From assembly GCA_036496605.1 (NCBI GenBank), contig DASXKV010000054.1, positions 186,001-250,000 of the forward strand: a stretch of DNA of 64,000 nucleotides, written 5' to 3'. Below, piece after piece: positions 6,563 through 10,432 of the stretch (its first letter is position 1; each line of letters starts with the position of its first letter). The stretch is from Gemmatimonadaceae bacterium (lineage in GTDB: Bacteria > Gemmatimonadota > Gemmatimonadetes > Gemmatimonadales > Gemmatimonadaceae). The notes beneath the pieces are model-generated. The model saw nothing but the letters and a program-made list of their open reading frames with translations. It was not told where the DNA came from and did no database searches. Position numbers and translations under genes: made by a program.

Positions 6563-7204
6563 TCATTTCCTTGCAAACTTCAAGTGCGTCACGTTCGGCT
6601 CGGCCACCGTCTCGACCAGCGACAAACCGTGCATGTCGTCGATGCCATCGAACAGGCGCTCGCCGCCGCCGAGAAGAATCGGGGACTGGCTGATGAGCAT
6701 TTCGTCAACAGTCCCGGCCTTCAGATACTGCTGGGCGGCCTTCGCGCCGCCCGCGAGAGCCACGTCTTTCCCCTTTGCCGCTCGGCGCGCCTGCGCGAGC
6801 GCCGATTCGATCCCATCCGTGACGAAAGTGAATGTTGTGCCTCCTTCGAGCACGAGCGGCGCGCGCGCGTGATGCGTGAGCACGAACACCGGATGATGAT
6901 ACGGCGGATTGCTGCCCCACCAGCCCATCCACGGATTCTCGCGCGCCCACGGACCAGGATGTCCCCCGAACATGTTCCGGCCCATGATCGTCGCACCGAC
7001 GTTGACCACCGACTCCTCCACGACGCGGTTGCTCTCGTTCACCGCGCCGCCGGACTCACCGTGCATCTCGCGCCAGAACTTGAGGGGAAAGACCCATTCG
7101 TGCAGCCGCATTCCGCCGATACCGAGCGGATTGTCGACGCTCTGCTTCGGGCCAGCGACGAACCCGTCGAGTGACATTGAAATTCGAAAGCGCAGCTTCG
7201 ACAC
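6563..7204 (-). CDS. Dihydrofolate reductase family (RibD C-terminal-like) protein
   Basis: The protein has 213 aa from a GTG start preceded by acagga about 9 nt upstream. It opens with RFRISMSLDGFVAGP, the family N-terminus, and contains GATIMGRNMFGG (cofactor/substrate loop), PVFVLTHHARAPL and DVALAGGAKAAQQYL, followed by ILLGGGERLF. These match the DHFR-like reductase superfamily that uses NAD(P)H. Many such soil-bacterial proteins are uncharacterised, so a housekeeping folate role is unlikely. The start codon overlaps a near-copy of the 8-mer word (CCTAACG on the gene strand). Confidence 0.85.
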   Translation of the reverse strand: MSKLRFRISMSLDGFVAGPKQSVDNPLGIGGMRLHEWVFPLKFWREMHGESGGAVNESNRVVEESVVNVGATIMGRNMFGGHPGPWARENPWMGWWGSNPPYHHPVFVLTHHARAPLVLEGGTTFTFVTDGIESALAQARRAAKGKDVALAGGAKAAQQYLKAGTVDEMLISQSPILLGGGERLFDGIDDMHGLSLVETVAEPNVTHLKFARK

Positions 7205-8750: not shown

Positions 8751-9080
8751 GAAGGCTTCTTCGAGGGACGGGAACGGGCCGACGTCGCGCTACGCCTTGG
8801 CATCAGCGTGCAGACCTACGACAACCACCTCCAGGCCCCGTTCCGCTCGTTGCGCGCCCAGTTGGCGCACGTCGTCGAACTGTTCACCGACGTCGATCGC
8901 TCGCTCTGGTACGATTTCATCGAGGAGCTGAGCGAGCGCCACGACGCCTCGCGCCTGCGCCGCGCTTCCGCCAAGAAAGGAAAACGTTCCACATCGAAGA
9001 GCGACCGGTCCAACTTCGAAGGCGACCGGTCCAACTCTGAACGCGACCGCGGCAATAACTCGCGCGCCGGTGCCGCATAG
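8751..9080 (+). pseudogene. Remnant of a sigma-factor-like HTH protein with heptad-repeat tail
   Basis: The frame opens right after the preceding stop and has no plausible start: EGFFEGRERADVALRLGISV, then QTYDNHLQAPFRSLRAQL. This resembles the region-4 helix-turn-helix of ECF-type sigma factors (GxS..T..NHL..A...LR), followed by LFTDVDRSLWYDFIEELSER. Its C-terminal tail turns into 7-residue repeats (DRSNFEG, DRSNSER, DRGNNSR) encoded by the first units of the 21-bp array. Regions 2 and 3 are missing, so it is a fragment, joined directly to the barrel remnant. An intact short gene starting at ATG 8808 is less likely. Confidence 0.5.
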
Positions 9081-9575
9081 GTAGCGATCGCTACCAAATC
9101 GTGAGGCGTCCGCGACAAAATGCAGGGCGACCGGAACACTTCGTTAGGCGACGCGCGCAAAACTGAAGGCGACGTCGGCTCAGAGCGAGTGCACCGCGGC
9201 AATGTGTGACACGACCGCGGCCATGCAGGACTCGACCGCGGCAATGTATGACACGACCGCGACAATGTTGGTAGTCACCCTGATTGTTTTTGCAGGCGGC
9301 GGCCGCAGTTCACGACACGACCGTGACTGCACACGAGACGACCGTGACTGCACAGGACACGACCGTGGCTTCGCATGACACGACCGTGGCTTCGCATGAC
9401 ACGACCGCGGCTTCCTTCGACATGACCCTGACTTCACGCGACAGGACCGCGGCTTCCCACGACACGACCGTGGTTTCCCTCGACACGACCGTGGTTTCCC
9501 TCGACACGACCGTGACTTCACCCGGCACGACCGTGACTTCACCCGGCACGACCGCGACTTCACTAGACGCGACCG
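9003..9575. repeat. Phased 21-bp tandem repeat array, core GACCG
   Basis: The pentamer GACCG or a one-base variant recurs at 9003, 9024, 9045, then (same phase) 9129, 9150, 9171, 9192, 9213, 9234, 9255. After a 1-bp shift it recurs at 9319, 9340, 9361, 9382, 9403, 9424, 9445, 9466, 9487, 9508, 9529, 9550 and 9571. Left units resemble gcgaccggtccaacttcgaag; right units resemble gacacgaccgtggcttcgca. Because 21 is a multiple of 3, stop codons are avoided in several frames, producing long spurious reading frames on both strands. In the left part the units encode heptapeptides of the DRxN type, later interrupted by stops. Confidence 0.9.
9081..9094. repeat. 14-bp perfect palindrome gtagcgatcgctac
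   Basis: gtagcgatcgctac is identical to its reverse complement and sits immediately after the TAG that ends the sigma-like remnant, inside the gap of the 21-bp array. It contains the GCGATCGC octamer. No function can be assigned. Confidence 0.4.
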
Positions 9576-9892
9576 CGATTCGCGGGCGCACGAAGCCCGA
9601 CGCGTCTGCCCGATCAGCGCACGAAGATCGCGCGCCGTCTATTATTCTTCGCAAACAGCCTTCTGTCGCCGAGAGCCCTTTGACCGAGAAGTCCCCTGGG
9701 GCCCCCGAAACGCCTCGGCTCGGTCCCCCTACCGACCAATTAGGCACAGGGCTGGACCTTGGGGGTACATTTTACTGTTGACCTGTCCGGCCCCAGAGCT
9801 TATGCTCGCGTTCGGTGACCTTGCCACGTAGTTGGCCGTCAGGTTCACATCGATAGTTCTGCAGCACCTTTTTTACTTCAGTCAGTTCAGTT
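9576..9892. other. 317-bp region without a confident gene
   Basis: This is the end of the repeat array followed by unique, lower-GC sequence. On the minus strand, 9772-9900 reads as about 40 codons ending in TAA (KKVLQNYRCEPDGQLRGK, then TEREHKLWGRTGQQ). This looks protein-like and may be the end of a lost gene or mobile element, but I do not recognise it. Confidence 0.35.
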
Positions 9893-10432
9893 TTGTCTCG
9901 AAATTTTCACGACTCGCCCTATAGCGACGAAGGGCCCCAGCAGCGCTCCCTCCCGAGCAGTCCGTCGCACCATCAACATCGCAGCACCTGGTCGCCAGAC
10001 GAAGACCATCCGCGCTCGCAGCGCGGGCGCCGGAGACGCGGGAAGCAAGGCGCCAAGCGCGGTGCCTCCCACCGACCGCTGCAGCTCACTTCGCATCCGA
10101 CGGGACGCCTGGCGTACGCCGAAACTCGGCGGTGGCTCCTTCAGCAGCACGGACCGGTTTGCGCGTACTGCGGTGAGCGCTTCGCGCCGACAACGATGAC
10201 CCTCGACCACGTAGCTCCGCGGCGCGGTCAGACCGCCTACGATCGGCGCGACAATCTCGTCCTCGCGTGCAAGACCTGCAACGCGGCCAAGCGAGATCTC
10301 GCGCCGATCGCGTTTCTGCTCGCGCGCCGCAGCCGCGCGACCCATCTGCTTCGCTATGGCGCGCATCTGAGCCCGATGCTCATCGAGCTCGCGAGCCAGT
10401 TGGCGCCCGAGGAATCGCCCTACCGCGACTGA
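9893..10432 (+). CDS. HNH endonuclease
   Basis: The frame gives up to 179 aa from a TTG; the true start is uncertain and no good ribosome site is visible. The N-terminal 70 residues are basic and disordered (RGRRRRGKQGAKRG). The C-terminal domain is a canonical zinc-ribbon HNH: CAYCGERF, TLDHVAPRRGQ, DNLVLACKTCNAAKRDL. Both CxxC pairs and the DH metal/catalytic residues are present. Such nucleases occur in restriction systems, mobile introns and repair. It lies just right of the repeat array and gene fragments, and its stop faces a convergent gene across a 20-bp-stem hairpin. Its partner and target are unknown. Confidence 0.85.
   Translation: MSRNFHDSPYSDEGPQQRSLPSSPSHHQHRSTWSPDEDHPRSQRGRRRRGKQGAKRGASHRPLQLTSHPTGRLAYAETRRWLLQQHGPVCAYCGERFAPTTMTLDHVAPRRGQTAYDRRDNLVLACKTCNAAKRDLAPIAFLLARRSRATHLLRYGAHLSPMLIELASQLAPEESPYRD

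Follow-up and report, generated by a model that had tools for sequence, protein, structure and literature searches.

Arrays of 21-bp direct repeats are present in the genome of a Gemmatimonadaceae soil bacterium as about 18-20 related copies, each of which starts within the final codons of an ECF-sigma gene and extends past its stop; at the loci of one gene family, ORF2, in other genera, 21-bp arrays of usually unrelated unit sequence lie directly upstream on the same strand. The unit sequences vary from genus to genus, so what has been conserved is the period. We give roughly even chances to the reading that the array consists of non-coding direct repeats in helical phase, bound by a protein, probably the ORF2 product, within a sigma-factor cassette; the array probably serves as the docking track of a DNA-binding protein. 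Binding, ORF2 as the binder and the consequence, whether auto-regulation, silencing or organisation, are what we infer from the sequence evidence described below.

In the window, that is, the whole 64-kb stretch of DNA that was analysed, the units keep their phase from ~8,994 to ~9,581 with a single 1-bp slip; an earlier reading made from the letters only (the sequence-only reading) had correctly located the array at 9003-9575, which is slightly too short at both ends. The CGACC cores of the first block stand at 9002, 9023, 9044, 9128, 9212, 9233 and 9254, with spacings that are all multiples of 21, including the 84-bp steps; after 64 bp (3x21+1) a second block of 13 units follows, with cores at 9318, 9339, 9360, 9381, 9402 and 9465 ... 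9570. Thus, the exact phase across an 84-bp gap and the 1-bp shift followed by 13 more units, both described in that reading, are confirmed, the gap being made of degenerate units in the same phase. TRF reported a period of 21 with 12.6 copies and 84% match, and the period-21 column statistic of the array reached z = 38.9, compared with a maximum of 4.6 in 500 shuffles; in the rest of the window it nowhere exceeds z = 9. A length of 21 bp corresponds to exactly two turns of the double helix. The layout of the region is as follows:

8757..9077, plus strand: 5'-truncated ECF sigma remnant (region 4 and C-terminal tail), with 58% identity to P0001 residues 183-289 by tblastn
8994..9077, plus strand: first four 21-bp units, still coding, for the sigma tail SKSDRSN FEGDRSN SERDRGN NSRAGAA
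9078..9098, plus strand: unit with the sigma stop codon and the 16-bp palindrome GGTAGCGATCGCTACC
9099..9266, plus strand: eight degenerate non-coding 21-bp units in the same phase
9267..9308, plus strand: two divergent units, GTTGGTAGTCACCCTGATT / GCAGGCGGCGGCCGCAG, with the 1-bp phase shift at their end
9309..9581, plus strand: thirteen 21-bp units with a GACACGACCG-type core (TRF; z = 38.9)

The sigma remnant lacks the upstream half of the gene (the first ~180 residues) and starts 9 bp past the stop of the preceding gene; a complete frame with region 2, as expected of a functional sigma gene, is absent from this copy. The array had also been described as open in several frames on both strands: ORFs are indeed found on both strands, as a consequence of the period being a multiple of 3, and several of the frames carry stops. 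Directly 3' of the array, on the same strand, an ORF at 9893-10432 encodes a putative HNH endonuclease-like protein (CxxC..H..N..C..C, recognised by eye).

The genome to which the window belongs (G000) comprises 5.97 Mb in 70 contigs; the array search gave 26 matches at ~20 places, and 18 regions were extracted and laid out in 21-bp lines. The usual order, seen in most copies, is the 3' end of the ECF-sigma gene, two to five tail-coding units (KKGKRSTSKSDRSNFEGDRSN...) and then non-coding units in phase; in many copies a unit placed between the coding and the non-coding ones has the stop codon inside a palindromic stem, whose pairing is kept among paralogues by paired changes (GGTAG/CTACC vs GGCAG/CTGCC). 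Position-specific unit types are common to the paralogues, many of which also carry the two divergent units at the matching place. The sigma gene is intact in two copies, L033 (P0001) and L028 (P0002); both products contain the region 4 domain of ECF sigma factors (Pfam Sigma70_r4_2, PF08281, above cut-off), and the first array units encode the heptads at their C-termini, for example SEGDR / GGDRSNFEENPSN. Intact proteins with a heptad tail, for which the sequence-only reading had proposed a search, are therefore found in these two paralogues. Homologous arrays and tailed proteins, whose joint absence was to point to random drift or assembly error, both exist, and random drift is contradicted by the number of related arrays in this one genome.

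Most sigma copies of the genome are 5'-truncated, as in the window, and the one in L021 has an internal deletion. Apart from the intact copies and L021, the listed copies, the window copy (residue 183) among them, start at residue ~154, 155, 156, 174, 183, 203, 208, 211, 218, 225 or 229, and the truncated copies L022, L023, L026 and L034 also begin shortly past the end (stop codon or terminator) of an unrelated gene; the 3' ends of the copies vary too. Many arrays stand without ORF2 and without a gene that they could obviously regulate, and the window copy, which lacks ORF2 and follows a truncated sigma gene, is best read as a dispersed remnant or satellite copy. Contig ends, where the assembly breaks, hold several of the arrays and ORF2 genes, so that the true copy number is probably higher; contigs C13, C14, C15, C44, C46 and C48 start at arrays or at the first ORF2 bases, and C23, C29, C43 and C61 end there. 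A retrotransposon-like spread, suggested by the 5'-truncated copies, was considered and rejected: the sole reverse transcriptase match belongs to an insertion on contig C38 that resembles a group II intron, and the 3' ends of the copies vary, which leaves a TPRT mechanism unsupported. The intron-like sequence with its reverse transcriptase domain (L028:4935-5300; G000:C38:192525-193035) lies just behind the ORF2 terminator of the most complete copy.

A further repeated string was observed in the same DNA. CGTTAGG (mostly CGTTAGGC) occurs 61 times in the window, on both strands, compared with 3.6 expected, for example at 7204, 8192, 8348 and 9142; its density is ~0.7/kb in other loci of this genome and near zero in most related genomes (0.28/kb in G078). 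It looks like a genome-wide highly iterated octamer of the uptake or HIP1 type. The 5' junctions of the truncated copies L023, L026, L029, L030 and L034 fall on or close to TTAG(G), which matches the iterated octamer; this may reflect chance or a target preference.

Downstream of the array, the fuller copies carry ORF2, a gene for a protein of ~235 aa, represented in L028 by P0003 (4175-4885, 236 aa). DNA searches outside the own genome returned only short weak matches in relatives, and the wider family was revealed by the protein search with ORF2, not by DNA similarity: the protein is found in 24 of 149 relatives, and an ORF2 profile search recovered it in 43 of 395 Gemmatimonadota genomes, belonging to 18 of 138 genera, a single genome holding up to 7 copies. 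Named GTDB contigs, when scanned, gave the same ORF2 loci, as Gemmatimonadales/Gemmatimonadetes MAGs; matches in one Deltaproteobacteria and one Acidobacteria MAG cover only a C-terminal fragment and could stem from misbinning, and no relative was found in the viral contigs searched. ORF2 has no accepted Pfam family, and NCBIfam gave a weak match in only 2 of 23 members. The protein is strongly basic (pI 9.4-11.4 in 28 of 30 members), and AlphaFold2, run on six natural homologues, predicts an all-helical bundle (pLDDT 87, pTM 0.71) with two helices of 54-60 residues. The fold search matched generic helical bundles only, the best DALI-scale Z of 10.5 being under the ~13 limit for bundles, and neither family nor fold searches found a recognisable DNA-binding domain.

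The association of the period with ORF2 was quantified by comparing periods 10-40 in the 700 bp flanking the gene at 44 loci. Period 21 is strongest beside ORF2 at 40 of them, 35 times in the flank taken as upstream and five times in the opposite one; two of these five were re-examined, and in the true orientation the array lies upstream of ORF2. With a strict threshold, 111 of 527 scanning windows upstream of ORF2 have period 21 vs 14 of 3,791 elsewhere, and none of the 527 passes at periods 18, 20, 22 or 24. At the ORF2 loci L125 and L143 the array is faint or absent, and no arrays were found at plain ECF-sigma loci of relatives. The sample consists of MAG and draft assemblies, in which several loci are cut by contig ends, and part of the ORF2 loci were inspected in full. 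ACCG and CGACC are the most consistently oriented k-mers across arrays, over-represented on one strand in the ORF2 orientation (permutation test, p = 0.0065 by locus; by genus 0.037 for ACCG and 0.065 for CGACC); this weakly hints at a distantly shared oriented core across genera, GACCG being the motif that the sequence-only reading had singled out. At L204 (G110:C32:2775-3683), in another genus, an array is present with no ORF2 or sigma gene detected nearby, and orphan arrays may thus not be unique to the genome of the window.

A selfish or neutral satellite, made of units born by slippage that spread without function and inherited their period from one ancestral array, would account for the ~20 dispersed, often truncated copies in one genome, for the array copies that a DNA search brought up in another genome, including one with neither ORF2 nor sigma detected, and for the patchy distribution over the Gemmatimonadota genomes. 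However, a neutral array whose sequence has become unrecognisable should lose its strict 21-bp phase and its column-specific core, and the position before one gene family is consistent in many genera; we consider this explanation rather unlikely.

The way in which the arrays change was analysed on close pairs. Between two MAGs (L185 vs L188) ORF2 is 95% identical and the array ~80%, with internal gaps in the array of exactly 21 nt and of 4 nt, one each; in the paralogue arrays of G000 the internal gaps are 21, 21, 42, 43, 1 and 1. Mismatches among these paralogues are unevenly distributed over the 21 columns (chi2 = 91, p = 5e-11) and define a ~12-bp core, columns 4-15 having 12% mismatches vs 21% in the remaining columns, although the p values, that for codon positions (below) included, are only indicative, because the core range was set post hoc and the compared pairs are interdependent. 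As judged from these alignments, the arrays change mostly by whole units and keep the ~12-bp core. In one MAG a deletion (L185:3454-3490) fuses the array to the inside of ORF2 and removes the ORF2 start.

The mismatches of the G000 paralogues show no codon-position bias (164/160/150, p = 0.70), and the post-stop array has stops in nearly all frames; a protein-coding tandem repeat is thus rejected for this part. The sequence-only reading had proposed an expanding protein tail that outgrew its gene, and its coding half stands for the first units of the window, which do encode the sigma tail. Likewise, the first 2-5 units encode the tail of the intact sigma paralogues, the sigma frame of L123 continues through ~ten units, and the array of L114 has no stop in the ORF2 frame. 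Over most of the array, however, the idea is not supported: besides the even codon positions, stops are found in most frames of both strands, 1-bp slips occur, and in other genera the array precedes ORF2, often without any such tail. The heptad-coding explanation is therefore largely refuted, and we regard it as extremely improbable.

A role of the transcribed array as RNA, for instance as a leader bound by ORF2 or as a source of 21-nt units, would suit its location on the ORF2 strand, where it could be the 5' UTR, and the basic protein, which could bind RNA. But folding is not in excess of shuffled sequences on either strand (mean z ~+0.4 to -1.6, mostly 0 to -1) and Rfam has no match to the array, so that a structured RNA was discarded; moreover, the units of G000 are near-identical, not variable or guide-like, and this explanation appears highly unlikely. 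Intrinsic curvature, which the sequence-only reading had suggested predicting, is not in excess either: in a Bolshoy-type wedge model the arrays score no higher than column-permuted controls. Because codon positions are evenly hit and neither folding nor curvature is in excess, selection seems to act at the DNA level, on the spacing and on the unit core. The second proposal of that reading, a protein-binding array, is favoured by inference: the strict 21-bp period, the conserved core and the basic partner protein suggest it, and the lack of both coding and RNA signals is consistent with it.

An ECF sigma gene is close to the array in about nine genomes (G110, G203, G253, G012, G078, G098, G088, G067 and G000), a raw count, in which sigma absence elsewhere is bounded by the length of the examined flank. 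The gene is placed in three ways, upstream on the same strand as in G000, divergent, or downstream of ORF2; L123 and L205 have the G000 order sigma - array - ORF2. The cassette often also includes a FecR-like protein, DUF2188, small membrane proteins of no family, and enzymes similar to phage endolysins (Amidase_2 or CHAP-like). Given this neighbourhood, the units could be target sites of the adjoining ECF sigma/RNA polymerase, as tandem promoters or as a titrating decoy, with ORF2 as the controlled gene; unit cores differ by locus, as sigma specificities would, and in L120 many units end in GAAC, which we take to be like an ECF -35 element. Yet the footprint of the polymerase is larger than 21 bp, so that adjacent units could not all be used, GAAC-type cores are not general, and many ORF2 loci have no sigma gene within the examined flank; we judge such a function of the units unlikely.

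In the docking-track reading, with one unit per two helical turns, ~12 of the 21 bp would be recognised by a protein lined up on one face of the helix. The natural setting would be immediately upstream of ORF2, often between it and the neighbouring ECF-sigma gene, and the likeliest ligand would be the strongly basic, all-helical ORF2 product itself. By binding cooperatively to 10-57 units in a row, the protein would build a nucleoprotein track, which could auto-regulate or silence the ORF2/sigma cassette, with its FecR-like anti-sigma, DUF2188, small membrane proteins and endolysin-type amidase/CHAP enzymes. Within G000, the sigma 3' end has been copied together with the array to the ~18-20 sites; at most of them the sigma gene is truncated on its 5' side, and ORF2 is frequently missing.

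Iterons and plasmid centromeres (parC/ParR, sopC/SopB, tubC/TubR) typically combine helically phased direct repeats with an adjacent gene for a DNA-binding protein. The arrays described here are likewise direct repeats in helical phase, with a 21-bp period, and adjoin a gene whose product may bind DNA, but they are chromosomal, consist of 10-57 degenerate units, have dispersed orphan copies, and combine a strict period with unit sequences that are unrelated between genera; in addition, the putative partner is a helical-bundle protein without a RHH, HTH or Rep domain, and no replicon or ATPase partner was noticed in the examined flanks. CRISPR and TIGR arrays are likewise regular and flank a conserved gene; here, however, the linkers are similar between units and paralogues, not spacer-like, RNA structure is absent, and no cas/Tas-like gene is found among the recurrent neighbour families. 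REP/BIME and other dispersed repeats also have many intergenic copies in one genome, whereas the present units are tandem, phased and tied to one gene family, and no RAYT transposase was noticed in the vicinity. AraC-type operators contain 21-bp direct repeats (PMC3870299) and share this spacing of recognition elements, but as single half-site pairs instead of long arrays.

No description of such an array was found in the published literature searched. It is possible, and we propose it tentatively, that an undescribed system of the Gemmatimonadota couples a basic helical-bundle protein and its own long, degenerate 21-bp-phased track with an ECF sigma/FecR-like pair and endolysin-type genes; selection would hold the helical spacing while the unit sequence drifts, and the tracks would be scattered as chromosomal binding stations. 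The element is defined by its spacing of two helical turns, not by its sequence, which makes it invisible to ordinary homology searches, and it is kept before one uncharacterised gene family across many genera. If the basic protein coats the array, the system would allow selection on helical phase alone to be tested cleanly, would bring to a poorly studied phylum a further module that regulates genes or organises the chromosome, and would provide an initial clue to the function of an unnamed multi-copy gene family.
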